Shown in pieces: positions 1 to 25,273 of a stretch of 25,363 bases of DNA. This stretch comes from a virus: positions 1 to 25,363 of the IMG/VR virus record IMGVR_UViG_3300023500_000026. One strand, written 5' to 3'. Position numbers and translations under genes: made by a program. Each line of letters begins with the position of its first letter. The first letter of the stretch is position 1. The notes under the pieces were generated by a model that ran no database searches, was not told where the DNA came from, and saw only the letters and a program-made list of their open reading frames with translations.

Positions 1-5
1 GCATG

Positions 6-29
6 AAATATACGCTCGAACGTATATTT
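6..29. repeat. Dyad of ATATACG-type motifs at left end
   Basis: The 9-mer aaatatacg (6-14) and its exact reverse complement cgtatattt (21-29) flank a 6-nt spacer. A second nested dyad pairs tacgctc (11-17) with gagcgta (36-42). The same core recurs in the adjacent repeat arm, so this looks like a protein-binding cluster. The bound protein and the function are unknown. Confidence 0.55.
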
Positions 30-61
30 GGGCTTGAGCGTACACTTTGCAAGTTGCTAAT

Positions 62-150
62 GTATAAGGTAAATATACGTGATATACGTGATATACGCAT
101 GAACCGCTTTTTTTTTCAAAAAAAAAGTAAAATAATCTACATACATATAC
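62..150 (+). repeat. Left arm of 89/90-nt inverted repeat
   Basis: Positions 62-150 are the reverse complement of 25274-25363, differing only by one base in a homopolymer (9 here, 10 in the right arm). The arm contains three 9-nt steps of the atatacg core (74-79, 83-88, 92-97) and a T9-C-A9 dyad (108-126), and ends in catatac. It lies just downstream of the last lysis gene. It could be a genuine flanking inverted repeat or the reason an assembly stopped here. Nothing coding is apparent in 1-162. Confidence 0.9.
71..99 (+). repeat. Three 9-nt iterons (atatacgtg type)
   Basis: Three tandem copies of a 9-nt unit with core tatacg start at 74, 83 and 92; the last copy ends gca rather than gtg. 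A palindromic version, atatacgtatat, sits at 145-156. Regular short iterons of this kind are typical of repressor, replication-initiator or packaging-protein binding sites. Which of these applies is not known. Confidence 0.6.
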
Positions 151-162
151 GTATATTTGAAG

Positions 163-690
163 TCACTCCTCTTTGTAAACCTGCTCCATGTAATCGCCGA
201 TCACTTGCAAGTCAGTGATCATTGCTTCGATGCTGGCTCTGCTGATATAGAAAAAGGTACCATCACTGGACGGTCGGGTTTGGGGCAGTGCTGCTCTATC
301 GTCAAACTTGCTGCCTTGGATACGTTCAAGGGCGTCGAGCAGCTTGCTAGTAACAACAGCACCACCAGCAGCATCAGCGTCCATGCCATCGAGTAATACA
401 CGAAGCTCTCTTTGACGCTTTGAGGCAAGCAATTGAGCTGCTCGTCTTTGCTTCTGTTCTTTCTGTACTTGTTCATCCAATGTAGCGTATTCATTTACAA
501 CCTCCTCAATCACTTTGTTTGATTCTTCAGTCTCGATGTTTGCTTGTTGCAGTGCAACTTGAGCAACCGCGACGTCCTCTTTTGCTTGTTGATAGTCGAA
601 CCAAAAGTATGCAGCAACACTGAAACCTACTGAATAAAGCAGTATTCGCCCGATATTACCTTGTATAAGACCCAAAAGGACTGTGAGCAT
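163..690 (-). CDS. Inner-membrane spanin (Rz-like)
   Basis: A 175-residue protein with one N-terminal membrane segment (about residues 14-31) and then a long charged, Gln/Glu-rich helical region (about 33-105) likely to form a coiled coil. This is the layout of i-spanins, which sit in the inner membrane and span the periplasm to fuse the two membranes at the end of lysis. The assignment rests mainly on topology, its place as last gene of the lysis cassette, and the lipoprotein gene nested inside it in another frame. The ATG at 690 follows the previous stop by three bases, with a GGGGG/AAGG-rich upstream. Confidence is high for the pair and moderate for family membership by sequence. Confidence 0.8.
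   Translation of the reverse strand: MLTVLLGLIQGNIGRILLYSVGFSVAAYFWFDYQQAKEDVAVAQVALQQANIETEESNKVIEEVVNEYATLDEQVQKEQKQRRAAQLLASKRQRELRVLLDGMDADAAGGAVVTSKLLDALERIQGSKFDDRAALPQTRPSSDGTFFYISRASIEAMITDLQVIGDYMEQVYKEE
219..389 (-). CDS. Outer-membrane lipoprotein spanin (Rz1-like), nested
   Basis: A 56-residue reading frame lies entirely inside the i-spanin gene in a different frame. From the ATG at 389 it encodes a hydrophobic signal peptide (MAWTLMLLVVLLLLAS) directly followed by Cys17, a textbook lipobox (L-A-S-C) for signal peptidase II. The mature part of about 40 residues is short and contains PKPDRPVMVP, fitting the proline-containing Rz1 family. It should be lipid-anchored in the outer membrane and pair with the Rz-like protein. 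The frame is open upstream to another ATG at 494, but starting there would bury the signal peptide, so 389 is preferred. Confidence 0.85.
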   Translation of the reverse strand: MAWTLMLLVVLLLLASCSTPLNVSKAASLTIEQHCPKPDRPVMVPFSISAEPASKQ

Positions 691-693
691 ACC

Positions 694-996
694 TTAACCC
701 CCTGCAACGCGAGACTGCCGCTTCCGTAGCTTTTCGCGTTCGTCGATTGCTTCCTGCATTTCTTGTTCAATCATTTGTGCTGTTTCAGCTTCCTTTGCAC
801 GTCTCATTTCGCGCTTATAGCTGCGAATCTCCTTTGACGTGCTGTCAATCTGCATTTGAATCACTTCGATGTTCGTTTCACGAAGATCGTCTGCAAGTGC
901 AAACGTCGTGAACGTCCACGTCATAGCACCTACAAGGAATCCAATGGTTGTGAATGCGCCGACAACAGTTGTGAGGTACTTCTTAATCAACTCCAT
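694..996 (-). CDS. Small membrane protein with coiled-coil tail (lysis cassette)
   Basis: A 100-residue protein with one N-terminal hydrophobic segment (about residues 9-34) followed by a strongly charged helical region (about 37-95, many Glu, Lys, Arg and Met) likely to be a coiled coil. It overlaps the end of the preceding holin-like gene by 14 nt and has an AAGG/GGTGA ribosome-binding region before the ATG. Its position between a holin candidate and the spanins suggests a lysis role, for example a holin partner or a second spanin-like protein. I do not recognise a specific family. Confidence 0.7.
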   Translation of the reverse strand: MELIKKYLTTVVGAFTTIGFLVGAMTWTFTTFALADDLRETNIEVIQMQIDSTSKEIRSYKREMRRAKEAETAQMIEQEMQEAIDEREKLRKRQSRVAGG

Positions 997-1192
997 GCTT
1001 CACCGCCTTTGTTTCCATCCAGTATTTCCCAATTCCAACGAGTGCAAGCACAACAGCAGAAGCGAAAGCTCCTTGAGCGTTGTTGGGTGCGTCGAGACCC
1101 ATGAACCAGTGCGTGATGTCAACTGCCAGCTTGCACGAAAAGGTCACAAACAAGATAGAAAGCACGCGCCATTCGCGGAATGCTTTAAGCAC
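983..1192 (-). CDS. Holin candidate, two membrane segments
   Basis: A 69-residue protein starting at a GTG (1192). It has a short basic N-terminus (KAFREWR), a first hydrophobic segment (about 10-32), a turn with GLDAPNN, a second hydrophobic segment rich in Ala and Gly (about 41-58), and a Lys/His C-terminus. This matches the topology of class II holins, which form the membrane lesion that triggers lysis. It overlaps the stop of the preceding 59-residue gene by 8 nt and is followed by a coiled-coil membrane protein and spanins. The call rests on size, topology and context. Confidence 0.65.
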   Translation of the reverse strand: MLKAFREWRVLSILFVTFSCKLAVDITHWFMGLDAPNNAQGAFASAVVLALVGIGKYWMETKAVKHGVD

Positions 1193-1364
1193 GCCGCGTC
1201 ACTTTCTTAAAAACAGTCAAACCCCATAGCAGCGACGGGCGCCAGATGTCCTTCAATAGCACTTTCTCGCCCTCACGCGATGCTGTAGCGAGTAGGATGA
1301 GCACAATTATAGAGGCGACGAATATGTAGAATGCGGCTGCAAGTAAAAGAAGTGTACTAAGCAT
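1185..1364 (-). CDS. 59-residue single-span membrane protein
   Basis: A short gene with an excellent ribosome-binding site (CTGGAGGTCGTCG before the ATG at 1364). The product starts MLSTLLLLAAAFYIFVASII, a single hydrophobic segment over about residues 3-27, and ends in a basic tail (VFKKVTRRA). It overlaps the DUF5675 stop by 8 nt and the following GTG start by 8 nt, so it is embedded in a coupled cluster. It may be a holin, antiholin or pinholin-type protein. No family is recognised. Confidence 0.75.
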   Translation of the reverse strand: MLSTLLLLAAAFYIFVASIIVLILLATASREGEKVLLKDIWRPSLLWGLTVFKKVTRRA

Positions 1365-1758
1365 CGACGACCTCCAGAGCGAATGGTTCTTTGTCCGGAG
1401 TGATCTTCATGAACTCTGTGAATCCCGCCCTACTCGAAAGAACTGCTCGCTCGCTAGATAGGATGCCGAACTGCTCGCCCACCAGTATGCAACCAAGCGA
1501 ATCGTGCTCGGGTATGTTGCCCTTGTGAAAAAGGATGTTGCTGCGGTTGGGCACGCCAAGGATCTTCACGACATGTCCATGCTTCGGTGAAATGTGCTTG
1601 ATGCACTCATATTCGCCGACAGGGATGCAGGATACGTTCGATGCGTTGTCAACCCAAGCTCGTTCCCCTGTTACAGCGAAAGGCTCGTTGTTGCTATCTA
1701 GCAAGACGCCGAACGTCGCTTCTCCTACGTGTGAGATCCTTTTAAGTGTGATTTTCAT
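1357..1758 (-). CDS. DUF5675-type protein, possible lysis enzyme
   Basis: A 133-residue protein resembling the DUF5675 family: GERAW (31-35), SCIPVGEY (43-50) and a central block with H78, GN (80-81) and SLGCI (87-91, Cys90). The spacing of His-x-Gly and Ser-x-Gly-Cys resembles the catalytic signature of YkuD L,D-transpeptidases, which act on peptidoglycan. It is the only enzyme-like protein in the lysis cassette, where no muramidase, amidase or transglycosylase is seen. I infer it may serve as the peptidoglycan-cleaving lysin or a related cell-wall function. That activity is not established by the sequence. The start overlaps the previous stop as ATGA. Confidence 0.7.
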   Translation of the reverse strand: MKITLKRISHVGEATFGVLLDSNNEPFAVTGERAWVDNASNVSCIPVGEYECIKHISPKHGHVVKILGVPNRSNILFHKGNIPEHDSLGCILVGEQFGILSSERAVLSSRAGFTEFMKITPDKEPFALEVVDA

Positions 1759-2090
1759 GGTTTGCCCCCTCTGCGCAGTCTGTCAATTATAGCTTGCTTC
1801 TGATCCAACTCATGCTCCATTTCCCACTGTAAGTGAGTATTGATAGCAGCCGCGTTCTGTGTGCCTTGTTTTGCAACAGCTCTGAGCTGCTCAGTAACCT
1901 CACGGGAAAAGGACTGCGTGAACACGTCAAACTTGTCCATCCTGCTTTGCGATGCGTACCATGTGCTTGCGGCTGACACGAGAATCATTCCGACGAGCAC
2001 TACTTCACGCAACGAAAAGCCTCGGCCGCCTGATAGAGCTTTGTGAATTATTTGAGATAAGTCTTCTTCGTTCACGCCAGTGTCTTTCAT
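1755..2090 (-). CDS. Membrane-anchored protein at head of lysis cassette
   Basis: A 111-residue protein with a soluble acidic N-terminus (MKDTGVNEEDLSQIIHKAL), one hydrophobic segment (about 28-46) and a long helical C-terminus (about 50-111) rich in Gln, Glu and Arg that ends RRGGKP. It starts by an ATGA overlap with the gene before it and ends in an ATGA overlap with the DUF5675 gene. The topology resembles small phage membrane proteins found near lysis genes. No specific family is recognised. Confidence 0.65.
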   Translation of the reverse strand: MKDTGVNEEDLSQIIHKALSGGRGFSLREVVLVGMILVSAASTWYASQSRMDKFDVFTQSFSREVTEQLRAVAKQGTQNAAAINTHLQWEMEHELDQKQAIIDRLRRGGKP

Positions 2091-2413
2091 ATTCCAGCCC
2101 TGATTCCAAGGTATTTTGAGACAGTAAGCGTCTCAGGGTCTGACAAAATTGTAGCGACGTCCAATGCCGCGACTTCAACACTGAATGGCAGCGAGATGAT
2201 TTCAGTATCAAAAGGAACCACAACCTGTGCAACATACTCGCCGATAGGTAGATTAAGCTTCGACACGTAAATTCCAGGCGCGATTTCAGTCCACGCCGCA
2301 AGAGCGTGAGCTGTGCCTGAAGGGACATCAATGTACGTACCGGACATCCCTGCCGCCTGACCTGTTTCTTGCGAGATGATTTTGATGTGAAAGTCAACAT
2401 TAGGGCTTGGCAT
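2087..2413 (-). CDS. Small beta-rich structural protein, hypothetical
   Basis: A 108-residue protein starting at the ATG at 2413, preceded by TTGAGGCGGTCACTT. The sequence alternates hydrophobic and polar residues with PIGEYVAQVVVPF and a PFSVEV strand, which suggests an Ig-like or beta-sandwich fold often seen in small tail accessory proteins. It overlaps the end of the DUF4376-type gene by 14 nt. It sits between tail fibre genes and the lysis cassette, and its function is unknown. Confidence 0.65.
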   Translation of the reverse strand: MPSPNVDFHIKIISQETGQAAGMSGTYIDVPSGTAHALAAWTEIAPGIYVSKLNLPIGEYVAQVVVPFDTEIISLPFSVEVAALDVATILSDPETLTVSKYLGIRAGI

Positions 2414-2921
2414 AAGTGACCGCCTCAAGCTGTGCCATTGTCAAATACGGCAGGGCTGCAAGCTGCGACTCAAGGACTGCAAACAACAACACTTTGTACT
2501 TGGCGCCGTCCTTCATGACGTCAGCAATTTGCTTGTCGTCGTGTAATTCGATTCTCTGCTGTTGAGGAGTTGTGCATAAGTCTACACAAGGAAAAGGAAA
2601 CGTGGAGTCATTGTCTATTTGTGATGTGACAAGAGCACCGATAAGGTCTACTTGATGTTCCATCTTCGCACTGTACCAGTGTGGTTTCCCTAGGGCGTTT
2701 GATGCAAATCCTTGGCTGGTGACATTCTCATAACCCGCGATAAGGCGTGCATACGCAGCGTCTAGCGCAAGCTCAAACTCGACAGCGGGTCTCAATGCGT
2801 CTAAGTCGGCTTTTGAAATAGGCGAGTCAATCCACTCAATGCGGTCGTATGTTGCGCCACTGCCTGACCATTTGACAAGAGGGTGCTTGCGCTCAAGGAT
2901 TTCAGAATAATCAGCTGACAC
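2400..2921 (-). CDS. DUF4376-like tail fibre-associated protein
   Basis: A 173-residue protein. The GTG at 2921 is preferred because GGAGG lies six bases upstream; an ATG at 2957 is also in frame but would overlap the fibre gene by 47 nt. The C-terminal half shows the DUF4376 pattern: a Tyr-containing stretch, a SQGFASNALG segment, a helix with HQVDLIGAL, then a strand and a helix ending in repeated hydrophobics. This domain commonly follows tail fibre genes and is thought to be a fibre accessory or attachment domain. The N-terminal part (YSEILERKHPLVKWSGSG) is reminiscent of tail fibre assembly proteins. Confidence 0.65.
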   Translation of the reverse strand: MSADYSEILERKHPLVKWSGSGATYDRIEWIDSPISKADLDALRPAVEFELALDAAYARLIAGYENVTSQGFASNALGKPHWYSAKMEHQVDLIGALVTSQIDNDSTFPFPCVDLCTTPQQQRIELHDDKQIADVMKDGAKYKVLLFAVLESQLAALPYLTMAQLEAVTYAKP

Positions 2922-3711
2922 GCACAACCTCCGCAGACAGGAAGACTTCCTCGTCACCGTCTTTCAGTGACTTCTCGTACTTGTCTTTCGTTGCCCAATG
3001 TTGCAGGCGCAGCGCGTCTGTTGCAACAACAGAAAACTCACCGTTGAGCTGCATCATAGAATCCGACTCCATGCCCACGAGTAAAGTCACTCCGGTCACG
3101 TCATTGATCAGTCTAACTCTGCCGAATCCTGAAATAGTTGCTTTCAGTGAATAAGAACCGCCTTCAAGCGTGAATGTGTCGCCTGTCACTGTCGCCATAA
3201 ATGTTGGGTCCACGACTTGCAAGATTGCTCTGTCGTTCCACTTGTCCTCCTTTAATTTACTGCCCGAACTACGCGAAGGTCGCTTGTCATACAGCCATAG
3301 CCTGCGGATACCCGCATGCGTATGGTTTACAGGTGCAGCGCCTATGCTAGTGGGTGTCAGTCCGTGCGGGTTTGGTACTGAACTGGAGACATGGTCATCT
3401 ATACTTTGACGCCACGATGTTGTGAATGCTTCTTGGATTGCGTCAAGTGTCACAAGGTTGGCATGTGCGTGAGCAGTATTGCCAGCGTCGATTAAAGCAG
3501 TTATCCGGCCCGCGGCACTTGTAACTTGCTTCCACTCGATTGTAGTCTTCACCCATAGCTCACCGTTTGCTCTGAAATAAAGAGACGGCACCGGTGCAGT
3601 GCCGTCATCTTCAATAGCAGGCGAAGCATTACCAAAAAAGATGCCCGCGGAGCCGCCTGCTAGAGCGATTCCGCTTCTCCGAGTTTGGAAAGCATCCTTT
3701 AAGGTAAGCAT
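2911..3711 (-). CDS. Tail fibre protein with His-rich trimer motifs
   Basis: A 266-residue protein. An N-terminal region with SLYFRANGELWVKT (43-56) is followed by helical segments carrying HAH (81-83), NPHGLTPTSIGAA (114-126) and NHTHAG (129-134). His-x-His elements of this kind bind metal along the axis of trimeric phage fibres. The C-terminal half (about 170-266) is beta-rich with a compact TNF-like strand pattern and may be the receptor-facing head. It overlaps the next gene by 11 nt. No strong ribosome-binding site is visible before the ATG at 3711, six bases after the previous stop. Confidence 0.75.
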   Translation of the reverse strand: MLTLKDAFQTRRSGIALAGGSAGIFFGNASPAIEDDGTAPVPSLYFRANGELWVKTTIEWKQVTSAAGRITALIDAGNTAHAHANLVTLDAIQEAFTTSWRQSIDDHVSSSVPNPHGLTPTSIGAAPVNHTHAGIRRLWLYDKRPSRSSGSKLKEDKWNDRAILQVVDPTFMATVTGDTFTLEGGSYSLKATISGFGRVRLINDVTGVTLLVGMESDSMMQLNGEFSVVATDALRLQHWATKDKYEKSLKDGDEEVFLSAEVVRVS

Positions 3712-3716
3712 CGACT

Positions 3717-5282
3717 TTAGATACCAGAACGACGAACGCGAGCGTTGACAGATGCTGGAGCAGTTAAGATCAACTGAACAATCTGCGAAGCACCTGTACC
3801 AGACAACTGCACTTGGAAGTCGGCATTGATATCAGTGCCTAAGTCAAGTTCAGCATAATCTGTTTCATCAACCTGAGTTGCATCAGCTGTTGGTGTGCCG
3901 TTGTGCATAGCGGAAAGCTTAACACCAACACAATTTGAAGCGTTTGCGCTATCTTCCATCAGGATTGACCATTCAACAAACTTCAACGAATCAACTAAGA
4001 AGCTGTCAATAACAACAGTGGTGAAACCCGCTGCAACACTGTCCTTCGCGATTGAAGAGACCTGTGCGTCAAGTTTGCCCAATGCTGTTGTTGACGAATC
4101 ATTTGTAGCAATGACGTTGGTGCTTGAATAAGCCTGGTTGCCAATCTTGTTGTCGATTGCTGTGTCAGCCAATCCACGGTCAATGCTCTCTTGCGCGATG
4201 TTTGCGTTATTCAAAGCAATTTGTGCGTCAAGAAGTTGATCAGCATTGTCCAAGCTTGTAGCACCGGCAATGTAGTTTGATCCACCTGTTGGCGTATAAG
4301 CACCATTGACGCCAAGACCCGCGCCGGTTTCAATAGCATCTACTTCGGTTTGAAGATTACCATCTGCAAGCGTGCGGTTGTTCGCTTCGGTAATTAAATC
4401 AGCAGCAACTTGAGCAATCGCTGAATCAAGAATGACATCAGCGTTTTTCAGCGATGTCGCAGGAGTAAGATGAGTCGTGCCCGTTGGTGCAGTGTACGCA
4501 CCGCCAACATCAAGACCCGCACCTGCTTCAATGCTGTCAATTTCGCTCTGTTGAGTTGTGTTGATGCTTTCGACCGACGAAATGCGTGAGCTATCAGTGC
4601 CTGCTTTCGAATCTAGCTTACCAATCGCAACTTCAAGGGCATCGTTATTGGCGACGACGTTGTTGCTTGTGTACGCTGGAAGAGCTGAACCCGCAGCCGC
4701 TTTACCGATAAACGCACGAACAAACTGATCTTCAGCGTTGGTTTGAGCATCAACGAACTGCCAGATGCCCAATGCTCGGAACTGCCAAGCCTGCCCTGCA
4801 TACGTACCTTGGACAACACGAATGACATCGCCCGCTGTTGCTGTGTTTGCATCTTCAACAAGTGACCAAGCACCTGTAGATCCGCCAACAATGTAGACGT
4901 TCGCAAGAGCTGTCAGCCCTGTTAGAAGCACACGTGAACCCGCTGCAACAGTAATGCCGTCAAGCGAGTCGCCCACGTTCATTGCAGCAACGACAGCCGC
5001 GGTAGTCGTGCTTGTGTTGTCGAGCACTAGCGCGGGTTCGCGCCATGCGCCGCCGGCTAATTGTGCAAGCTCGCTAGAACGAACAAGCGTTTCCCAGTTT
5101 GCGGTTCCTGCACCAGCTACTCGTTTGACATACTTGTCACCCGTAGTGTTGTTGGTGTATTCGGAGCCGACGGGTGCTCCATCTTGGATACCTGCATCTC
5201 CACCAGGAATGCCTACTCCTGAAATGATTACACGTGAGCCGTCGTCAAACCCGCCACGTGCCTTAAAAGGTTGCTTTGCCAT
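3717..5282 (-). CDS. Tail fibre/structural protein with duplicated modules
   Basis: A 521-residue protein with a good AGGAGAAGAAA leader before the ATG. The N-terminal domain (about 1-180) has a WREPALVLDN segment and a VLLTGL...ANVYIV...W.LVEDA strand block typical of phage fibre heads. A duplicated module of about 43 residues (ID.IE.GAGL..GAYT.....ATSL.NAD..LD) lies at about 248-290 and again at 315-357, and a second motif (Y.S.NV.A.ND....A.GKLD) lies near 204-225 and 384-406. Such modules recur in long tail fibres of many phages. The C-terminal 120 residues are beta-rich. It is likely a trimeric side or tip fibre. Confidence 0.75.
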   Translation of the reverse strand: MAKQPFKARGGFDDGSRVIISGVGIPGGDAGIQDGAPVGSEYTNNTTGDKYVKRVAGAGTANWETLVRSSELAQLAGGAWREPALVLDNTSTTTAAVVAAMNVGDSLDGITVAAGSRVLLTGLTALANVYIVGGSTGAWSLVEDANTATAGDVIRVVQGTYAGQAWQFRALGIWQFVDAQTNAEDQFVRAFIGKAAAGSALPAYTSNNVVANNDALEVAIGKLDSKAGTDSSRISSVESINTTQQSEIDSIEAGAGLDVGGAYTAPTGTTHLTPATSLKNADVILDSAIAQVAADLITEANNRTLADGNLQTEVDAIETGAGLGVNGAYTPTGGSNYIAGATSLDNADQLLDAQIALNNANIAQESIDRGLADTAIDNKIGNQAYSSTNVIATNDSSTTALGKLDAQVSSIAKDSVAAGFTTVVIDSFLVDSLKFVEWSILMEDSANASNCVGVKLSAMHNGTPTADATQVDETDYAELDLGTDINADFQVQLSGTGASQIVQLILTAPASVNARVRRSGI

Positions 5283-5291
5283 TTTCTTCTC

Positions 5292-5558
5292 CTATATCGA
5301 AATTTGCGTTGGACGCAAAAGGTTGTATATCTTCACGGTGATGCTCGATGCGTCGTTGTTTGTAACGACTAGCCCGGCAGGTGTGACGTCAAAATCAACT
5401 GTGATGTCCTGCCCTGTCATAGCATATTCTTGGAAGGATCCTCCTACCACCATGATGTCAACAGCTTGCTCTCTGCCATCTGCTGCTATAAAGCGGATGA
5501 CGCGCCGAGCAAACGAAGGCAAAGGTAGCACAGCACTTGACCCGGCCTTGATGATCAC
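5292..5558 (-). CDS. 88-residue beta-rich protein, hypothetical
   Basis: It starts with GTG at 5558 in a GTGA overlap with the peptidase gene. The 88 residues show alternating strands (RRVIRFIAADGREQ, ITVDFDVTPAGLVVTNND, ITVKIYNLL), so a small beta-sandwich is likely. It sits between the peptidase and the large fibre gene and is probably a minor structural protein. No family is recognised. Confidence 0.65.
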   Translation of the reverse strand: MIIKAGSSAVLPLPSFARRVIRFIAADGREQAVDIMVVGGSFQEYAMTGQDITVDFDVTPAGLVVTNNDASSITVKIYNLLRPTQISI

Positions 5559-6016
5559 TTGTGCATCGCTCGAAGATAATCTTGGAATGAGCCTACAAAT
5601 TCAAGCTTGTCCACGCGGAATAGGACGTCGCCCGATGTCGTTCTTTTGAGCAGGGCAGCTTGAATTCCCTTCGCAGCATCAATCCCTTCAACGACATATT
5701 CGAAGCAATACGCTCTTTTCGCGTTGCCTTTCTTAAATAACCAGCCAAGGATGCCTGCATAATCATACCGCTCGCCCATTCGATGCTCGACATATTCAAC
5801 AGCTTTTGAAGTGTTCGCCTCAACTGAGTACACTTCAACGCGCCTGTTCAAAAAGCGGTCGGGATCCAACGCGCCGACATTGCCGCGCGAGCCGTCAGCG
5901 TCAAAGAAAAAGTTGCCTACTTCAAGAGCTGCATGCGAATGGCGTGTTCGCGTCACTGCACATATCAACATTGAAAAGAATGATCTCCATTCAGTCTGAA
6001 AAAGAATGACTTTCAT
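5555..6016 (-). CDS. Permuted NlpC/P60-type (YiiX-like) cysteine peptidase
   Basis: A 153-residue protein from the ATG at 6016, which is preceded by TCGGAGGCCTACGC and overlaps the previous stop as ATGA. An N-terminal TRHSHAALEVG (24-34) carries candidate catalytic His28, followed by a strand and by YDYAGILG (84-91) leading to RAYCFEYV (101-108) with candidate nucleophile Cys104. His before Cys is the order in permuted NlpC/P60 (YiiX/LRAT-like) hydrolases. SGDVLF (128-133) is another motif common in these proteins. In tail modules such proteins may open the cell wall at infection, an inference here. Confidence 0.65.
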   Translation of the reverse strand: MKVILFQTEWRSFFSMLICAVTRTRHSHAALEVGNFFFDADGSRGNVGALDPDRFLNRRVEVYSVEANTSKAVEYVEHRMGERYDYAGILGWLFKKGNAKRAYCFEYVVEGIDAAKGIQAALLKRTTSGDVLFRVDKLEFVGSFQDYLRAMHK

Positions 6017-6459
6017 GCGTAGGCCTCCGATAAGTGGTTTGCCCACGAAAACGCAAAACGGTCAAGACCGCCTGCGGATGCAAGTGTAGGTGACTGTGGA
6101 ACTGAGTTGTCGATGCGTCGAATCCGCCACGCTGCTGCTGTGTCAGCAATGCCTTTTGAAAGCGCCACGCCGACATACACGAAAACGCCGACAGTGTCAA
6201 AACGTGCTTCCTTAATCTCACCGCTTAGGTTGCCTAGAGCGATAGCTAGTTCAGGCTGCTCAATCAAAAGAACTTCTTTGCTTGCAACTGTGTCAACTTG
6301 TGCTTGCGTAGCCTGTACAATCTGTTCATCGCTTGTTGAAGTGATGTCGACAGCCTGTGGGTCAGGTGCGATAACCAAGCCGTCTGCTTCAATCACTTGG
6401 ATAGGGTTGTCCGTCTGCACAATTTCAGGCGGCTGTGTGTCAAGTATGATGTCAGACAT
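6013..6459 (-). CDS. Tail-associated structural protein
   Basis: A 148-residue protein with an acidic, low-complexity N-terminus (SDIILDTQPPEIVQTDN) and a C-terminal block containing VFVYVGVALSKGIADTAAAWRIRRID. The pattern 'Y.G.A..G....AAWRI.RI' recurs in short phage tail proteins encoded near baseplate genes, and the C-terminus (FAFSWANHLSEAYA) fits the same group. It overlaps the previous gene by 8 nt and the peptidase start by ATGA. It is most likely a virion tail component of unknown exact role. Confidence 0.65.
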   Translation of the reverse strand: MSDIILDTQPPEIVQTDNPIQVIEADGLVIAPDPQAVDITSTSDEQIVQATQAQVDTVASKEVLLIEQPELAIALGNLSGEIKEARFDTVGVFVYVGVALSKGIADTAAAWRIRRIDNSVPQSPTLASAGGLDRFAFSWANHLSEAYA

Positions 6460-6796
6460 GCGATACGCCTGCTGACAGTTTAGCGGTGCCTTGGAAGAAC
6501 CTAACTGTTTTCGCTGGAGCTCCGAAAGTTACAGTAAGGTCGTGCTTCTCTTTAGTAAAGTTAAGGGCGGCGGTGTCTGCTGCTGATAGCAGCAAGTCAA
6601 TAGACCCATTCCCCAGAACGATACGCCCGTTTGCTGTCGAAAGTTCTACGACTACGACGTCCGAGGCGTCACGAATTTGCATCAAAGCAGATCCGGCCGT
6701 TAAGTCAATCGGTGCGCCAGTGACCTTGTCCTTGACGGAAAAGTTACGGGAGAAGGTAGCAAATTGTTCAATGATGAAATCGTACTGTGCTGACAT
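6452..6796 (-). CDS. Small beta-sandwich tail protein, hypothetical
   Basis: A 114-residue protein starting six bases after GGAG. It reads DFIIEQFATFSRNFSVKD, PIDLTAGSALMQIRD, then RIVLGNGSIDLLLS and a final strand. This pattern (a domain setting out 'default', 'limits' and 'value' strands) is common in small tail proteins similar to the N-terminal domain of baseplate upper proteins. It is the first gene after the 22-nt repeat gap. Confidence 0.65.
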   Translation of the reverse strand: MSAQYDFIIEQFATFSRNFSVKDKVTGAPIDLTAGSALMQIRDASDVVVVELSTANGRIVLGNGSIDLLLSAADTAALNFTKEKHDLTVTFGAPAKTVRFFQGTAKLSAGVSHV

Positions 6797-6816
6797 GCCA
6801 AACTCCGTGCCTTCCT

Positions 6817-6904
6817 GATCTGCATGTTATATGCCGACGATCTGCATGTTATATGCCGACGATCTGCATGTTATATGCCGACGATCTGCATGTTATATGC
6901 CGAC
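6817..6904. repeat. Four perfect 22-nt tandem repeats in intergenic gap
   Basis: Four identical copies of a 22-nt unit (beginning gatctgcat, ending atgccgac) start at 6817, 6839, 6861 and 6883. They lie in a 130-nt gap (6797-6926) between a hub-like gene and a small structural gene. Each unit contains a dyad gcat-gttat-atgc, and the minus strand reads TATAAC in each copy. The period is close to two helical turns and is not a multiple of three, so the array is not coding. There are no spacers, which excludes CRISPR. Confidence 0.95.
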
Positions 6905-6926
6905 GACCTTTTTTGCAACTCTCTGC

Positions 6927-8897
6927 CTATAGAGGCGCCTGCAACTGTAACAGTGCCAAGTCCGTTGACGAGAGGATGACGCCCGGCGCTGTGAGTGAAG
7001 GAAGTGACGTGAGGTCAGACCAATCCGACCCGTTCGTTGGTGCAGCGAAGACTGAAACAGGCGTTCCGGTCAGCGTTCCGAGTTGCACCAACGCCACAGC
7101 GTAGCTCGTCAATGTTGGAGGAGTTGACACTACCACAACCTTGGTTTTCCACAGGCCAATTCCTGACATATCGCGAGTTGAGGAACGTAGAATAGGGGCA
7201 CCCGCTGCGACTGCGGCAGTGTCAGTGACTTGATAAACCGCGCCATCGAAAGTAAACGTCTGATTCACACCCGGTAACACCTCTTGCAGCGTTCCACGAT
7301 TCACACCCGCTACCACCGCTTGCAGCGTTCCACGATTTATGCCTATAGTTGACCAGCTAAGTGCAGAGAATGGAGCATAGTTGCTGCTAAAGGTTACAGG
7401 TCCGTCGACGATAGTTTCAACTCTTGTCTCTTCTGATAGAACAGCTTTCGCCATCTCAAACACAGATGTTCCTGACCTGTCGAAGAGAGTGGTCCCTTGC
7501 AGTCTGTAAGAACTCACGAACTGATCTGTGGCGTTCGAATCAATAGTGAACGAAGTCGAGCCAAGTGCTGGTAGTCGACCGACCCGACCAGGGGGATTCG
7601 GCGGTAAAGGAGTGAAGGACACTGGGGTAAACGATACAACTACTGTTCGAGCGACTTTATCAATAGTGAAATCAAAGAACCCTCTATCCGTCGAAGTGCT
7701 AGAATCTAGCCCATGAAATCCAAACCCCGCCGCAGTTCGCACCAGTTCATCCACTTCATAAGTTGCATGTGGTGCAACTCCCGAAGCATCAACCGTGACC
7801 GTGAAAGAAGAGCCACCATCAAGCGGGTAGACTGTGACAGTGTAGAGCATAGTTCTAAAGCCCTGCTCACGCAAACTGACGGCCCATGCCCTACTGCTGT
7901 CAACTGTGTAACAAGTAGGGTTTGAAACCCGCCGGAGCTCCACATCAGAGAAAGTGCTCACATATACTGTTCCAATCGGCGCGGCAGGTGGTGGAGGGCC
8001 GCCACCGGGTTTCTTTATGCCTATAATCTTTGCTGCGTCTCTATTTTGTTGAAAGTACAACACGACGACTTCATCCCCCACTTCAGCCAAACCCGTACTG
8101 CCCATGTACCAGATGGGGATGCTTGCTGTTTGCAGCATGTCGCGCGTGCTTGACGGGTTTCGGTTAAGCCCGAAGCTCTGCCCGTTAGGAGTACGCGAGC
8201 TGATAGCAGCATCAAGCAGAACATCTGCATTCGACCCGGTAACAGCGGTCACGGTTCCTTTTCTGTAAAGCGGCTGATATTTCTGCCAGCCGATATACAG
8301 AGCTTCGTTGAACGCCCAATTTGCAGCGGATTGAATTGAGGCTGCTGTAACCATGGAGCCGTGTCGCGCGTGATCGTACGTGCTATCGCCGATGTCTGCC
8401 ACATGCGTCTGATTTGGATGAATGACATAGCTTTGTTTTGAAGGGTTCTCGTTATTGATTTCAAGTAGCCCAACATGAAGCCCTATTGCAAGGTCTGTGG
8501 TGTAATCGGCACAGAACACGTCAACCACCATATCCTGCCGCGGCTTAACAGAGTTGAGCCAGCAAAGCTGCATCCGCCCAGTGTTAATGCCAGCTCTGTT
8601 TCGATTGAACGCGAGCTTTGCCAAACGATATGCTCTATTGGTTGTGCTCACTTTGTCCACATAGGGTTTAGTGCTGAACTGCCCTACCGCTATCACATTG
8701 TCAAGCTCGAATTGTGCTGCTTGCTTGAAGGTATGCGCCTCGTCGACAGCTATCGTCAAATCGCTTTGCTTTGCAAGCGCGGCAGCGATCGAAGCGTTCG
8801 TAGCAGCAACACGAGCAACCCAACCACTGTCGTCGTACACGAGCTGAACCGAATATTTCGCGTCGCCCAAGTTGGCGACAATAATCCCCTCGCTCAT
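6927..8897 (-). CDS. Large tail hub/baseplate-like protein with OB-like and fibre segments
   Basis: A 656-residue protein starting in an ATGA overlap with the previous gene. Residues 1-210 form a compact region with several Trp, Cys and His residues. Residues about 211-296 resemble an OB-fold spike domain (YRKGTVTAVTG, VLLDAA, a PIWYMGS loop, VGDEVVVLYF, IIGIKKPGG). A GGGPPPPAAP linker (298-307) then leads to a beta-rich C-terminal half with 12-residue tandem repeats near 520-545. The layout suggests a central tail hub or spike with a fibre-like extension. The exact family is not recognised. Downstream lies the only sizable non-coding gap in the tail module. Confidence 0.65.
   Translation of the reverse strand: MSEGIIVANLGDAKYSVQLVYDDSGWVARVAATNASIAAALAKQSDLTIAVDEAHTFKQAAQFELDNVIAVGQFSTKPYVDKVSTTNRAYRLAKLAFNRNRAGINTGRMQLCWLNSVKPRQDMVVDVFCADYTTDLAIGLHVGLLEINNENPSKQSYVIHPNQTHVADIGDSTYDHARHGSMVTAASIQSAANWAFNEALYIGWQKYQPLYRKGTVTAVTGSNADVLLDAAISSRTPNGQSFGLNRNPSSTRDMLQTASIPIWYMGSTGLAEVGDEVVVLYFQQNRDAAKIIGIKKPGGGPPPPAAPIGTVYVSTFSDVELRRVSNPTCYTVDSSRAWAVSLREQGFRTMLYTVTVYPLDGGSSFTVTVDASGVAPHATYEVDELVRTAAGFGFHGLDSSTSTDRGFFDFTIDKVARTVVVSFTPVSFTPLPPNPPGRVGRLPALGSTSFTIDSNATDQFVSSYRLQGTTLFDRSGTSVFEMAKAVLSEETRVETIVDGPVTFSSNYAPFSALSWSTIGINRGTLQAVVAGVNRGTLQEVLPGVNQTFTFDGAVYQVTDTAAVAAGAPILRSSTRDMSGIGLWKTKVVVVSTPPTLTSYAVALVQLGTLTGTPVSVFAAPTNGSDWSDLTSLPSLTAPGVILSSTDLALLQLQAPL
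7262..7333. repeat. 36-nt in-frame tandem duplication
   Basis: Two 36-nt copies (7262-7297 and 7298-7333) differ at three positions and are followed by a partial third copy. On the minus strand they encode adjacent 12-residue units of the type GTLQ.V..GVN. This is an in-frame internal duplication in the hub-like protein. Confidence 0.85.
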
Positions 8898-9574
8898 TCG
8901 AGCATCAAGATTTCGTTCGTCAAGTCAGAAATTGACCATTGCAGCGATCGAAGAACGAAGCTTCCTGCGGCATGCGACATCGTGTCGCCTATGCGAATTG
9001 ATGTGTCCATTTGAGCTCGTAGCTCTTGAGCTCCTGCCGCCCCACGTCTGAACGTAACGCCCGCGGGCGTCCTCACTTCAGCAGGTCGGTTGGTGGGTAA
9101 CCCGCCCCATACAATAATGTTTGGGTCGTCGGCAGCGATAAGATTGCTTGGGTTGCGCGCCATGTCTGAGTAGCCCTGCAAACTATAACTATTCGAAAAG
9201 GATCCTTCATCAAGCCGCGACAACGACAAAGGAGCTCGCAGCGTTTCACTGACGACCACCCAACCGTTGCTCCATTTCTCTCCGCTCAATACAACTATTT
9301 CTCCGTTTGGTCGTAAACCAATCTCATCTACAAAAGCAAGCCCATCAGGAACAACTACGCTCATCCAAGCAAGTGCGCCCTGCGTCCAACGAAGGGCGAT
9401 CGATGTCATAGGAAGCGTGACATCTGCAACCCCGTCAGCGAGCCCTGTAAGAATCAGAATGTACACGTCGCCTGATACTGCAACACCCGCCGGCATAGCA
9501 GGTTTATCGCCATAACCCGCAACCCCACTGCTATTGAATGCGGCGGAGTTGAAGGAAGATGCGTCAAACAGCAT
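8894..9574 (-). CDS. Tail hub-associated structural protein
   Basis: A 226-residue protein. The ATG at 9574 is chosen because GAGGAG lies about ten bases upstream. It overlaps the sulfotransferase stop by 11 nt. It begins MLFDASSFNSAAFNSS, an N-terminal pattern common in phage tail proteins that follow a distal tail gene, continues with many beta strands, and ends in a Trp/Leu-rich segment (RSLQWSISDLTNEILMLE). It is translated just before the large hub-like protein with an ATGA overlap and is likely a structural partner. No named family is assigned. Confidence 0.65.
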   Translation of the reverse strand: MLFDASSFNSAAFNSSGVAGYGDKPAMPAGVAVSGDVYILILTGLADGVADVTLPMTSIALRWTQGALAWMSVVVPDGLAFVDEIGLRPNGEIVVLSGEKWSNGWVVVSETLRAPLSLSRLDEGSFSNSYSLQGYSDMARNPSNLIAADDPNIIVWGGLPTNRPAEVRTPAGVTFRRGAAGAQELRAQMDTSIRIGDTMSHAAGSFVLRSLQWSISDLTNEILMLE

Positions 9575-10379
9575 TCGGGTAGAACTCCTCATAGAACCAT
9601 GAGCAGCGTTGCTTGATATCAGCAGCAACTTCAGGCGTCAGAACGTCGTTCCAGTCAGTCGACAATGCGCCAAGCTTGCTCTGAACATCATGCTCGCCGA
9701 AGGGTTCATGCACAGCGTCGTTCTCGAAAGTTGCTTGTTGAATGTTGTCAAAGTCATACGCGAAGGAATCCTCGCCTAGGTATGCGTGAACCATCTTCAT
9801 CACAGAGGCAGGGTTGGAAACAAGCTGTTCCGACTTCACAACCAGAACATCGTTCAACTGGCCGCGCTGGCGTGCTTCGAATAGCCACTCGAGCGCAATG
9901 CCAAGCGGCGATGACGTGAGGTATGATTCTACACGAGCTTGAATTGTTGCTCCTGCCATGTCGCCAGGTTGGGCAGCATCCGTCCAAACAGTAGGGTTCT
10001 TCCTGCGAAGCTTTTCCATGCTTGCAACAATGCCACGAATATCCCTGATGGGTACAATCACTTTCGGTGCAGCGTACAACGAGTTGAGCAAATCTAGCTG
10101 CCCCATCCACCCGCGGCACTTATCAAATTGAACAGGTTCGCTTTCGGAAGCAAACCACCCGTTGATGATGCCACGTAAAGCGTTGGGCATGCGTCTATCT
10201 AGCTCAGCCTTGCTTAGTGCTTTGAAGTCCATGCTTGTGCGTGTTTGACGGGCTGCATGAACCAGCGCAATCATCGGGCTCGTTGTAGTGACACCAAAAC
10301 GAGGGTTCTGTGTGAGAATCGCGCCAAGTACAGTTGAGCAAGACCTAGGGAGCCCTCCCAAGTAATGAACATCGTTCAT
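9564..10379 (-). CDS. Sulfotransferase-family protein
   Basis: A 271-residue protein with the hallmark N-terminal PAPS-binding loop YLGGLPRSCSTVLGAIL (6-22), followed by NPRF and a TTTSP segment, and a second block VIVPIRDIRGIVASM (107-121) carrying the Arg and Ser expected in the 3'-phosphate loop. The C-terminal part (SWFYEEFYP) also fits. The family transfers sulfate from PAPS to hydroxyl or amine groups. Similar single-domain genes are known from marine phages, where their target is largely unknown. It is embedded in the receptor-binding region by ATGA and 11-nt overlaps, so it belongs to the operon. It could modify a tail glycan or a host surface molecule (inference). Confidence 0.8.
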   Translation of the reverse strand: MNDVHYLGGLPRSCSTVLGAILTQNPRFGVTTTSPMIALVHAARQTRTSMDFKALSKAELDRRMPNALRGIINGWFASESEPVQFDKCRGWMGQLDLLNSLYAAPKVIVPIRDIRGIVASMEKLRRKNPTVWTDAAQPGDMAGATIQARVESYLTSSPLGIALEWLFEARQRGQLNDVLVVKSEQLVSNPASVMKMVHAYLGEDSFAYDFDNIQQATFENDAVHEPFGEHDVQSKLGALSTDWNDVLTPEVAADIKQRCSWFYEEFYPNAV

Positions 10380-10666
10380 ACATTCACCGCCGAGGAGTAT
10401 TTAGCATCAAGCTTCAGTTTAGCATAACCGGCTGCCATAATATCGCCCGCTGTAACATCCGCGAAAGGAACGTCCACTTCAGCATGGGAGTCAGGTGTGC
10501 CGAGCACCATAGCAGTTGCGTTGCCCGCTGCCTGCTGAACAGGATCGGCGATGTAAGGCTGTTCGCTGTACATCACTCGGTTGACTTTACTGACGTTATC
10601 GACACGCACCTTGTCAATTTTCACGTACTTCTCTACGCTGTTTGAGTTTGTATATTTTAATGCCAT
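10376..10666 (-). CDS. 96-residue fibre-adjacent protein, hypothetical
   Basis: The ATG at 10666 follows a strong GGAGGAA motif that lies over the end of the fibre gene, so this start is preferred over any further upstream. The product (ALKYTNSNSVEKYVKIDKVR, then VMYSEQPYIADP and a short C-terminus) is soluble with no clear domain. It may be a fibre chaperone or a small structural protein. It ends in an ATGA overlap with the sulfotransferase. Confidence 0.65.
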   Translation of the reverse strand: MALKYTNSNSVEKYVKIDKVRVDNVSKVNRVMYSEQPYIADPVQQAAGNATAMVLGTPDSHAEVDVPFADVTAGDIMAAGYAKLKLDAKYSSAVNV

Positions 10667-10667
10667 C

Positions 10668-12599
10668 TTATTCCTCCATGAAGATGCCCTTGAAGAACAT
10701 CCTCCCCTTGTAAAGCTGCGGCGCGGCGAGCGCATCGACTGCTGAACCAGCAATAGTAACGCTGGCACGTAAATGCGTCGCGCCTTGCGTCATGCCTGTT
10801 GAAATAAGCGACTCGAATGTTCTTGCTGCTGATAGTGCTGTTGTGATCGCGGCAACCTGTACCGGAGTGAATGCTACACCATTAGTCGAAAGGCTTGCTT
10901 CAACTGTTGCTTGCGTCAATGTTACAATGGTTGCTCCGAATGTGCTACACACAATCCCGATCTCTTTGGGCAGGAAGATTCCGCCTGCGGGCAAAGCAAT
11001 GGTTGCAGTGCCCATCGCTGTGAGGTCGACTTCGTTACTCATCAGAACAACTTCGGCGGCAGCAAAGTCTCTAGCAGGCGCGACTGAGCCCGTGTCCTTA
11101 CTGACAGTGATTGGATTCGCAATCATTGTAGATGACGCCAAGTTGTTGACCTTATAAGCGCCCACAGCAACAGACTGCGCACCATAAACTTTGGCTTTGT
11201 AGCCAAACGCCGACGACTTAACGGCAGCAGAACCCGCGTATGAATACGTGCCTACAATCGCCGCAGCGAGTGCGTAGTTGTACGCATACGCACCGAAGGT
11301 ACAACCATACTTCGCATAGGATCTAGCTCTGTAACCGGTTGACGTGGCGTAGTTCCCACCTTGAGCATAAGAGTTCGTGCCAACAGCTACGTTGCCACGC
11401 TGTCCTGCTGCGGCTCCAGCGTATGCCCACAAGCCTACTGCGACTCCTCGATACCTTGCCGTTGAGAAGGGCCCTATTGCGATCCCTCGTGATTCGTAAG
11501 CTTGCGAGTTGGTTCCGATGGCAATTGAATCGAGCCCGTAAGCATGGGCACTCTTGCCTATGGCTGTAGCCTTGCCATAGGCTGCTCCTGCTTTGGTTCT
11601 TGCTGCGAACCCAATGCTGATGTCGGCATCCCAAGGAGCCGTACTGCCTTCGCCAACAGCAATGGACTGGCTGCCACCTGCTTGCGTGATAGCTCCTATA
11701 GCAACAGCTGACCAACCTGTGAAAGAGCTTTTGCCAATAGCTATTCCGTATGAAGTTGAAGCATCAGCAAGATTGCCGATAGCAACATTGTTGATACCAT
11801 TGTTTGTGCTTTTCGCATTTGTTCCGATAGCAATAGCATCAGCACCCGTTCCTGAGTTTGCTGAATAACCAATGGCAACCGCGTGCGAACCGCGTGCGAA
11901 GGTTCTGTAGCCGACTGAAGTGGCTCCGCTACCACTCGCGGTAGCGTGGTAGCCGATAGCTGATGTCTTATAGTCGCTTGATGTGCAGGATAAGCCGACG
12001 CTTACAGCAAAATATCCCGAAGCAGTACAGCTATTCCCTATAGATGTTCCGTGGTCGCCTGCTGCTGTGTTGCCGCGCCCAATTGAAACAGCGCGAGCAC
12101 CCGCTGCACTGCACCCATTGCCTGAAGCGACGGAATCGATACTCGAAGCAGTACACCCGTCGCCCATTGCTACGGACGCTGAACCTGACGACGTGCAGTT
12201 TCTACCTACTGCCGCTGAGGATGCTCCAGACGAAACAGATCCAAAACCTGCTCGAACGCTTTGCTGTGCGCCCGTTCCGCCCGTTCCTTCTAGGTCCAGC
12301 AACGACTGAAAAGCGGCAGCGGTCAGGCGTTGTGAAATAGTTGTCCCTGCGGGCCAGTCGCGTGCTGTGGTCCCTTCTTGCGCCCTTACTATTGTAAGCG
12401 CGTCAGCGGCGTTTGCTGATACGCGAACAATCTCGTAGTTCCAGCTGTCTGTGAGCGTCACAATGAAGTGTTCGTTCGCGGCTGGTACAGGGAATAGAGC
12501 TCCATCACCCGCTGCGACTGTAACAGATAAATCAGCGAGAAAAATGCTTGCGGCTGTTATTGAGTCCGCGTTGTTTTTGTAAAGTGCAAGACTCATCAT
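10668..12599 (-). CDS. Tail fibre with YadA-head-like repeats
   Basis: A 643-residue protein. Residues 1-118 form a fibre-base domain ending RAQEGTTARDWPAGTTISQRLTAAAF, common in tail-attached fibres. Residues about 119-480 are some two dozen repeats of about 14 residues with the core (V/I)A(I/V)G........S, matching the left-handed beta-roll of YadA/Hia trimeric autotransporter heads. The C-terminal 160 residues are a separate beta-rich domain. The protein is expected to form a long trimeric adhesin used for host attachment. The start has two consecutive ATGs (12599, 12596) after AGGAG. The second gives better spacing, but the first overlaps the previous stop. Confidence 0.8.
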   Translation of the reverse strand: MMSLALYKNNADSITAASIFLADLSVTVAAGDGALFPVPAANEHFIVTLTDSWNYEIVRVSANAADALTIVRAQEGTTARDWPAGTTISQRLTAAAFQSLLDLEGTGGTGAQQSVRAGFGSVSSGASSAAVGRNCTSSGSASVAMGDGCTASSIDSVASGNGCSAAGARAVSIGRGNTAAGDHGTSIGNSCTASGYFAVSVGLSCTSSDYKTSAIGYHATASGSGATSVGYRTFARGSHAVAIGYSANSGTGADAIAIGTNAKSTNNGINNVAIGNLADASTSYGIAIGKSSFTGWSAVAIGAITQAGGSQSIAVGEGSTAPWDADISIGFAARTKAGAAYGKATAIGKSAHAYGLDSIAIGTNSQAYESRGIAIGPFSTARYRGVAVGLWAYAGAAAGQRGNVAVGTNSYAQGGNYATSTGYRARSYAKYGCTFGAYAYNYALAAAIVGTYSYAGSAAVKSSAFGYKAKVYGAQSVAVGAYKVNNLASSTMIANPITVSKDTGSVAPARDFAAAEVVLMSNEVDLTAMGTATIALPAGGIFLPKEIGIVCSTFGATIVTLTQATVEASLSTNGVAFTPVQVAAITTALSAARTFESLISTGMTQGATHLRASVTIAGSAVDALAAPQLYKGRMFFKGIFMEE

Positions 12600-12940
12600 G
12601 CAGCTCCTATGACTTCTATTTTCATTGACGCTGAACCGTTCTTGAAGCTGAAAGTGCTGGGTGCGACAATGAACGCCCCTTGCGGTGTAACGAGCGTCAG
12701 GGTCTGGTAAATCCGCAACATGCGTTCGAGCTTATCGGACACAGCTTTCGACACGTTATCCACAACTATTGTCCAAGTGCTATCTCCAAAGGAATGTCCG
12801 CGGTCAATAACAACTACGCCTCCATCCAGAGTTTGGCGCTTTCTAATACGTCGTGAAATGTCGCCGATAGTTGAATTTGCTGATGCGGTGACTTGAACGC
12901 TTCCTTGAGGATCAAATACGGGTGCGGATAAACTTATCAT
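12596..12940 (-). CDS. Small distal tail protein
   Basis: A 114-residue protein directly after the tape measure (ATGA overlap) and before the fibre (ATGA overlap). It is beta-rich with a central helix (SDKLERMLRIYQTLTLVTP), and a strand pair around TWTIVVDN. In siphovirus operons this slot often encodes a distal tail or minor tail protein at the tail tip. No residue signature fixes the family. Confidence 0.65.
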   Translation of the reverse strand: MISLSAPVFDPQGSVQVTASANSTIGDISRRIRKRQTLDGGVVVIDRGHSFGDSTWTIVVDNVSKAVSDKLERMLRIYQTLTLVTPQGAFIVAPSTFSFKNGSASMKIEVIGAA

Positions 12941-15546
12941 GGTACCACTGCTCCTGATGCTAGGCCCTTCAGATATTCAAGCTTGTCTGTCGCTGCACGA
13001 ATTTGAATCCTATCCAGTATCTTCCACATGAACGCTTCAAGCTCAATCTCTAAGTCGCCCGCGTTCACTTCCAGCACTGCTGGAGTGTTACCTTGTAGCA
13101 CAATGGAGTTCGCCGCTGCGATTTGTGACTGAACTAGCTGCTTCTGTAATGCGAGAGCGGCCGTTCTCTCGGATTGAGCTGTTCCTATGGCTGCGAGAAT
13201 CGTGCTTGCGCTACCGCTGTCAGCGCCGTTCAACTGGTCGAACAAACCTAGCAACAGGTCGCCCGACCCTTGGACTGTTGCGTCAACACTGTCAAACGAA
13301 CTTTGGACCAGCTTTGTTGCTTCCTGTAGCTGTGCGATATCCACTTTCGATTTTATCTCGAACACTTTCACGCTTGCGGCGGAATCTATTTTCGCGAACT
13401 CGATTGCCATCTCCTGCTGTGCAGAAAGAGCGTCCTCTGTTTTCGCAATGTTTTTATCTTGTGCAGCGGTGTTCGCGTCGATTGCGCCGGCAGCTTGGAA
13501 GATTGCTGTATTTGTGCCATCAGCAGCGGTTGCATAGCCCACAAGCCCTTGCGAGCCCTGCTCCGTGCTGCTTGTTGCAGCATCTACTGATTTCTTCTGC
13601 TCCGTTGCAGCGGCAGAGACTTCAGCAAGTCTTGCAGCATAATCAGCATCCGAAATACCTGCTTGTGTCGCGGTGTCCATTTGCTTCTGCATGGAATCAG
13701 CACTCTTCAGAATCGCGTCAGCGTTGGTGATAGCTGCTTGTGTAATCTTGTCAAAAGGAACGGGTTGATTGTTGAGAGCTGCTACTGCATCGCTACTCGA
13801 AATCAATCCGCCCGTTGCTTGGTCTATCCAACCAATGAAAGCTTGAATCGTATCGCGAGCAGGTTGCCCCATGTTCTCTTCAATCAGCGTCCCCAGTGCA
13901 AAGCCCGCAGCACCCGCAGCACCAACAAGCCCTGCTTTTCCTAAGGACGAAACCAGCTTGCTTGAGCTGCTCGCCATACCTAGAAGTCCGTCGCTGCCCA
14001 GGCCAAGCGCTTTTGACATGGTACCGAGTGCAGGCGCAACAGCGGTGATCGCGATAGCTACGCCTCCAAGTGTTCCGATGAGATTCTGAGTTTCTACGTC
14101 AAGGTCTGCCCACGCATTGACTGCATCAAGGATGAGGCTTGCTAGTTTGACGAGCACGTCGAACACGCCTGCGGTTGCTGTTACAAACCCAGCTATCACG
14201 TCTATCACTTTGTTCATTGCAAGAGCTAAGTCCTGCGGTTTAGTTAAGTCCAAACCGTCAAACACCGTGCCGAGGGATCCACTTACTTGCGAAAGAGCAT
14301 CAAGTAAAGGTGTGAAATCAACTAGGTTGAAAGCTGCTGGCATTGCTGCGGCAATTCCGTCGAACTGTGTTGCGAGCCCGTTTGCCCACACGTTTATCGC
14401 GTCGGTTATGTCAGACAATGCGCCTGCTGAAATGGATACCCCGAGGGCTTGGAAAATAGCGCCCACGCCACTTGCAACATCTGTGAAGGAAGCGAGCAGC
14501 GGTTCGCCGAATTGTGTCAAAGAAACAGTTGCGGCATTCACGGCAATTTGTGTCTGGTTATTTAGCGTGTCAATCAGGCTTTTGTAGGATGCTTCTACAA
14601 GCCCGTTCTTGTTTGCTTGGCGGTCAAGTTCAGCGTTGTATTTTGCCAACCCGCCTTGAGCAATAATGAAAGCCGCTGAACCTGCTTCGAGCGATCCAAA
14701 TAAGAGTTTCGTTTTCTCCGCGCTGCCACCTGTTGCTTGGAGCAGCAGGTCCATCTTGCTTGCTAAGTCTTTGGACTGGAATGACGCGCTGCTTGCGTCA
14801 ATGCCTAATGTTTTCAGTCCGTCGGACAGTCCTTTGGTAGGTTTGCTCAGTTCGTTGAATAGTGCTGTCAACTGTGTGGTAGCGATTGCACTGTTACCCG
14901 TTACAGCCGTGACAGTTGAAAAAGCTGCGCCGACTTCATCTAGTGATATGCCGGCAGCCTGCGCTGAAGGCGTGATCAGTGCAAACGTGCTTGACATTTC
15001 ACCAATTGTTGTGACACCACCCTGCATTGTTGCGAATAGCGTGTCTGAAATGTTGCCTAGATCGTTTGCTTCCAAGCCCATGCCGTTCATTGTGTTGGTT
15101 AGCAGTTTCATCGCTGTCGCGTTGTCTGTGTGCCCAGCTACGCCAAGCTTTTCCGCTGCTCCAAGGGCAAGAATACTGTCCTCAAACTTGATACCTGCTG
15201 ACTGTGCGTCAAACGTCGATTTCTGTAGTTGATCAAGTGAAGATGTACTGGTTGCGGCGAAGGTCAGAATGTCGCCGCCCAACTGTTGCATCTGCTGCCC
15301 AGTTGCATCGCTCAACGTCCCGATAGACTTCATGTTCACTTGGAAGTCGCCTGCGAGCGTGATAGCAAGCCCGCCCAAAGCCGCCGCCGCTGCAGCCGCC
15401 GCCGCTTCGACTGTCAGAATCGAAGTTGTCGCTCCTGCGATAGGTCCTGTGATACCCGTTATGGATGAGCCTATCGCTTTTGTCTTGCTGGAGACGTTGT
15501 CTGTGGCATTGAAGATGACTTCGACTGTTTTGTTTACATTAGCCAT
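12937..15546 (-). CDS. Tape measure protein (TP901 type)
   Basis: An 869-residue protein. The first 380 residues match the TP901-type tape measure core: an Ala-rich segment (about 46-60), GDFQVNMKSIGTLSDATGQQM, repeated helical blocks with GGVTTIGEMSSTFALITPSAQAAGISLDE, and TQLTALFNELSKPTKGLSDGLK. The middle (about 430-560) contains several hydrophobic helices, and the remainder is long Ala/Gln-rich helix. The protein fixes tail length and passes with the DNA into the host. The usual ratio of about 0.15 nm per residue would give a tail near 130 nm (inference). The start follows CAGGAGTTGAAGA. Confidence 0.9.
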   Translation of the reverse strand: MANVNKTVEVIFNATDNVSSKTKAIGSSITGITGPIAGATTSILTVEAAAAAAAAALGGLAITLAGDFQVNMKSIGTLSDATGQQMQQLGGDILTFAATSTSSLDQLQKSTFDAQSAGIKFEDSILALGAAEKLGVAGHTDNATAMKLLTNTMNGMGLEANDLGNISDTLFATMQGGVTTIGEMSSTFALITPSAQAAGISLDEVGAAFSTVTAVTGNSAIATTQLTALFNELSKPTKGLSDGLKTLGIDASSASFQSKDLASKMDLLLQATGGSAEKTKLLFGSLEAGSAAFIIAQGGLAKYNAELDRQANKNGLVEASYKSLIDTLNNQTQIAVNAATVSLTQFGEPLLASFTDVASGVGAIFQALGVSISAGALSDITDAINVWANGLATQFDGIAAAMPAAFNLVDFTPLLDALSQVSGSLGTVFDGLDLTKPQDLALAMNKVIDVIAGFVTATAGVFDVLVKLASLILDAVNAWADLDVETQNLIGTLGGVAIAITAVAPALGTMSKALGLGSDGLLGMASSSSKLVSSLGKAGLVGAAGAAGFALGTLIEENMGQPARDTIQAFIGWIDQATGGLISSSDAVAALNNQPVPFDKITQAAITNADAILKSADSMQKQMDTATQAGISDADYAARLAEVSAAATEQKKSVDAATSSTEQGSQGLVGYATAADGTNTAIFQAAGAIDANTAAQDKNIAKTEDALSAQQEMAIEFAKIDSAASVKVFEIKSKVDIAQLQEATKLVQSSFDSVDATVQGSGDLLLGLFDQLNGADSGSASTILAAIGTAQSERTAALALQKQLVQSQIAAANSIVLQGNTPAVLEVNAGDLEIELEAFMWKILDRIQIRAATDKLEYLKGLASGAVVP

Positions 15547-23342: not shown

Positions 23343-23343
23343 C

Positions 23344-25254: not shown

Positions 25255-25273
25255 GTCCCGCGCTCCTTGTGTA

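Follow-up and report, generated by a model that had tools for sequence, protein, structure and literature searches.

A conserved linker at a mosaic border holds four tandem copies of a 22-nt unit in one tailed phage and one copy in a relative

The array and its surroundings

What are four identical copies of a 22-nt sequence doing in the one non-coding gap within a phage's late tail operon: do they form a functional array of sites, or are they simply a repeat that has changed in length? The window analysed here is the whole 25,363-base record of an uncultivated tailed phage, in which all the late genes lie on the minus strand. The features on which the argument depends are the following.

6452-6796, minus strand: 114-aa gene downstream of the array, matching phrog_1084 (E 1.5e-17)
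6797-6816, minus strand: ribosome-binding region (AGGAAGGCACGGAG) separating the start codon from the array, recognised from the sequence
6817-6838, 6839-6860, 6861-6882 and 6883-6904, minus strand: four exact 22-mers, GATCTGCATGTTATATGCCGAC
6905-6933, minus strand: rest of the conserved linker on the upstream side, TCTATAGGCAGAGAGTTGCAAAAA...
6927-8897, minus strand: 656-aa gene upstream of the array, tail-tip-like, a role suggested by its position
6933-16300, minus strand: divergent, apparently swapped cassette running from the tail assembly chaperone and tape measure through later tail genes to the 656-aa gene

Read on the coding strand, each unit is GTCGGCATATAACATGCAGATC, and two extra bases, GA, follow the fourth 22-mer at 6905-6906. 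Tandem Repeats Finder reports 6817-6906 as 4.1 copies with 100% match and a score of 180, the strongest tandem array in the window and one with the exact units that characterise a variable-number tandem repeat. With up to three mismatches allowed, the 22-mer was matched neither in 100 shuffles nor in the rest of the window. The four identical 22-mers described in the first-pass annotation are therefore real, exact copies absent from shuffled sequence, and chance is not expected to produce such an array. They fill most of a 130-nt gap (6797-6926) that separates the 656-aa gene from the 114-aa gene.

This gap had been called the only one in the tail module. The window's gene list contains one other longer than 13 nt, at 15547-15687 (141 nt), which proves to be an open alternative-frame extension following a GGGAAAG heptamer at the end of the 154-aa tail assembly chaperone gene. 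The extension is conserved in the relative and probably represents a programmed -1 frameshift of the chaperone, an arrangement like that of lambda G/GT. Since a conserved open frame covers this second gap, the description is right in substance.

The 114-aa protein has a weaker match (1.3e-7) to phrog_3304, L-shaped tail fiber assembly, and is 98% identical in the relative. No family match was obtained for the 656-aa protein. Its N-terminal half shares 48% identity with a gene of the relative, while its C-terminal half has no significant match to that gene. The same variable half contains an in-frame 36-bp tandem duplication (7262-7333; 12 aa, 92%).

A single copy in a related phage

A scan of viral contigs with the 22-mer matched a single contig, IMGVR_UViG_3300023445_000001 (hereafter G001), which at 45,172 bases is probably a complete genome since it carries a 127-bp direct end repeat. 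G001 has one exact 22-mer at the orthologous place (22086-22107) and no further copies elsewhere at up to three mismatches. On the coding strand the linker of the window consists of TCTATAGGCAGAGAGTTGCAAAAAAGGTC, four copies of GTCGGCATATAACATGCAGATC and AGGAAGGCACGGAGTTTGGCATG, that of G001 of TCTATAGGCAGAGAGTTGCAAAAAGAACC, one copy of the same unit and AGGAAGGCACGGAGTTAGGCATG, so that the flanks of the unit are near-identical and the difference amounts to three whole units, or 66 nt. Homology to the relative starts within 6905-6933, a segment that includes the TAG stop codon of the 656-aa gene.

Four copies against one in these two genomes is the whole-unit difference typical of variable-number tandem repeats. 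Because G001 has one copy at this place and none elsewhere, the array appears to be a whole-unit copy-number variant and not a required multi-site array.

Two phages, the window and G001, were found to cover the array locus, and this narrow basis for judging copy number, drift of the unit and direction of change counts against the explanation given below. The 22-mer was absent from genome contigs, a linker 18-mer occurred in no IMG/VR contig beyond these two, the 114-aa protein was found neither in genome contigs nor in a phage collection, and a DNA search of phage and plasmid collections gave no match. A search with the tail-tip (656-aa) gene returned G001 only. An alignment search yielded 42 loci, all but one at 35-40% protein identity, and the junction in one of them, L007, lacks such a unit. 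The viral contig L065 contains an 18-base core of the unit; this is an isolated 18-nt identity, with no tblastx or blastn homology to either phage, and was taken as chance. A literature search on intergenic tandem arrays in phages found nothing close.

With the four-copy form known from a single contig, the extra copies might be an assembly artefact. We consider this very improbable: at least one unit is confirmed by the independent contig G001, common short reads exceed the 88 bp of the array, and assemblers generally tend to collapse repeats rather than expand them.

The perfect identity of the copies had been attributed to selection or recent slippage. If the copies were as old as the split between the two phages, the chance of 88 unchanged bases on the window's branch would be about 0.15, at the 4.3% divergence of the flanks; for a single unit unchanged between both phages the figure is 0.39. 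Selection is thus not needed, and recent origin or luck is enough. The alternative of recent slippage fares better, G001 having one copy at the same place. Nevertheless, such arrays are uncommon: with a period of at least 10, at least three copies and at least 90% match, just one was found in 320 kb of other loci, at a contig end, and G001 has no comparable array elsewhere. This is not, then, an everyday event, a fact that weighs somewhat against the simple explanation given below; equally, a single array, however well placed, in one phage out of two is no demonstration of function.

The border of a divergent tail cassette

The window is 95.7% identical to G001 over positions 1-6839 and roughly 92-95% identical from about 16.3 kb to its end. 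In the cassette between them gene order is the same in both phages and protein identities are 31-73%. The left border is sharp, homology stopping within a few bases at the linker (around 6933), whereas at the right border it recovers over a few hundred bases, at about 16.2-16.4 kb. The simplest reading of this comparison is a swapped tail cassette with its left crossover in or beside the linker, the homology border then presumably corresponding to the point of recombination.

As would be expected of a boundary sequence, the linker is short and conserved and lies at a sharp intergenic homology border. However, presence at both borders or reuse in other phages was not seen, the 22-mer (up to three mismatches) lying at the left border only and the linker 18-mer in no third IMG/VR contig. 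Accordingly, of the suggestion of a recombination hot spot at a module border, the border stands, homology breaking beside the gap, while a hot spot does not follow from one border in two phages.

It is nonetheless possible, if rather unlikely, that the linker is a functional recombination site for exchange of the tail cassette, to which extra copies add target length. The border of a 9.3-kb divergent cassette does fall at the linker, and short boundary sequences have been proposed to underlie phage mosaicism (PMC3029335). Yet one border was seen, no such unit is present at the right border, and the linker occurs in no third phage. Moreover, crossovers between genes survive preferentially anyway. 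Both the array and the border favour a gap without coding sequence, of which there is only one, so that finding them close together adds no independent support for a connection. The stronger version, in which the linker is a dedicated exchange point and unit expansion raises the rate at which tail-tip modules are swapped, is highly improbable. If the linker did serve as a true exchange point, this would be relevant to the way in which phages trade modules for host recognition.

Several other observations concern this cassette and its surroundings. Positions 9564-10379 encode a sulfotransferase-family protein (PF13469, E 1.1e-10) that is 73% identical in G001, and 10668-12599 a 643-aa protein that carries an adhesin-like motif, YadA head repeats (PF05658). 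Another contig, L064 (IMGVR_UViG_3300009408_000257), is 99.2% identical to window 21674-25363 and continues into a replication region 100% identical to G001 across 8.5 kb, which points to further mosaicism among these phages. AT-rich inverted repeats of about 149 bp (2-150 and 25274-25363 in the window, 15270-15417 and 39890-40036 in G001), which contain ATATACGTG tandem units together with a dyad of A/T runs, enclose the complete late operon on either side in both phages. In locus L009 of the relative G001, positions 4261-8330 have matches to a queuine tRNA-ribosyltransferase-like protein, GTP cyclohydrolase, QueC and QueE, a gene set likely to serve 7-deazaguanine DNA modification.

Possible functions of the unit

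Each copy does contain, as the first-pass annotation pointed out, a coding-strand TATAAC and a dyad, GCAT-N5-ATGC. Neither is distinctive. A 4-bp dyad of this type is present in 31% of random window 22-mers taken as tandem units, i.e. the dyad is at chance level, and the unit has no 5-bp dyad; hexamers within one mismatch of TATAAT number 96 in the window.

The TATAAC could nevertheless be the -10 element of an internal promoter in the linker, the array then multiplying start sites. In both phages TTGCAA lies upstream of the first TATAAC at a spacing of about 15 nt, and the linker occupies the only gap ahead of the 114-aa gene. That spacer is short, however, and copies 2-4 have no -35 element. 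A sigma-70 scan (-35 and -10 elements 16-18 nt apart) gave no site, and nothing promoter-like or terminator-like was found in the array region. Given also how common such hexamers are, we regard the promoter as unlikely. A T7-like promoter reading of CTATAGGCAGAGAG was rejected, its upstream bases not being conserved and the 14-mer occurring once per phage; in addition, a scan of ten longer proteins from the replication region showed none of them to be a phage RNA polymerase.

Cooperative binding by a regulator or replication protein was another proposal, and a 22-bp period near two helical turns, with the repeats in direct orientation, would suit an operator or iteron array. Such an array should keep several sites in relatives, but G001 has one unit, with no other match there or in the window; besides the chance-level dyad, it also counts against the proposal that the array sits within the late tail operon and that the replication genes lie far away. 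The proposal is mostly refuted, and we assign it the lowest probability of those considered.

The units might instead act in the mRNA, the leader tuning translation of the 114-aa gene through spacing, masking of the start codon or small MQIVGI frames. GCAUGU at the start is able to base-pair with ACAUGC, as the folds predicted for the two phages both show, and the first three units each encode ATG...TAA with the next ATG one base on. Folding was compared for the two natural leaders, with four copies and with one. Against shuffles the four-copy leader of the window scored z -0.01 and the one-copy leader of G001 slightly better, z -1.73; predicted accessibility of the start region was 0.47 and 0.51, respectively, within the range of the window's other genes. 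The small frames have no good ribosome-binding sequence ahead of them, and their coupling to the gene is not conserved since the last frame ends before the start codon in G001 and overlaps it in the window. Control through the leader thus seems as doubtful as the promoter. A structured RNA, by stability above shuffles or by membership of a known family, was not found, Rfam giving no match, and on the same two results the idea of an RNA processing element lacks structural support.

A variable-copy repeat in a conserved linker

Taken together, the array is best explained, with reasonable though not complete confidence, as a tandem repeat of variable copy number and probably near-neutral effect, situated at a mosaic border within a conserved linker. 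It would be a small repeat of the minisatellite type, in which a single 22-nt stretch of the linker was multiplied to four units or, in the opposite direction, four were reduced to one in the relative; we infer strand slippage or unequal recombination as the mechanism. The late tail operon has no other non-coding gap, and here a change of length would break no gene. The linker also marks the left edge of a cassette of roughly 9.3 kb, extending from the chaperone gene to the tail-tip gene, that related phages have presumably exchanged. The number of copies would probably have little or no effect, at most making the leader of the 114-aa gene 66 nt longer. The last unit ends 20 nt ahead of the 114-aa start codon, so close that an effect on expression is plausible, which counts against near-neutrality.

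The locus illustrates clearly how a tandem repeat can gain or lose whole units in the single non-coding gap that a phage tail operon offers, beside a mosaic border. It also teaches caution: a relative should be checked before perfect tandem repeats are read as binding arrays.

Comparison with known systems

Iterons, found as 22-bp direct repeats at some plasmid origins, share unit length and direct orientation with the array, which differs in its place in a late tail operon, in having no initiator gene in view and in its single copy in the relative. The start-associated sequences of Cluster K mycobacteriophages are reportedly short conserved elements upstream of the start codons of many genes; the linker is similar in being short, conserved and placed ahead of a start codon, but the 22-nt unit is at one place only. 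Conserved boundary sequences, or linkers, at mosaic borders of lambdoid and other phages have been discussed (PMC3029335). The present linker resembles them in that it is short, conserved and intergenic and coincides exactly with the edge of a swapped module, and differs in being known from one border of one pair of phages, in its tandem expansion and in having no matching sequence at the other border.

The array itself belongs to an already known and ordinary kind, the variable-copy tandem repeat. Variable-number tandem repeats or minisatellites of bacteria and phages arise by slippage or unequal recombination. The array shares with them exact head-to-tail units in non-coding DNA and a whole-unit copy difference between relatives, and differs in that copy variation is here known from two phages only.
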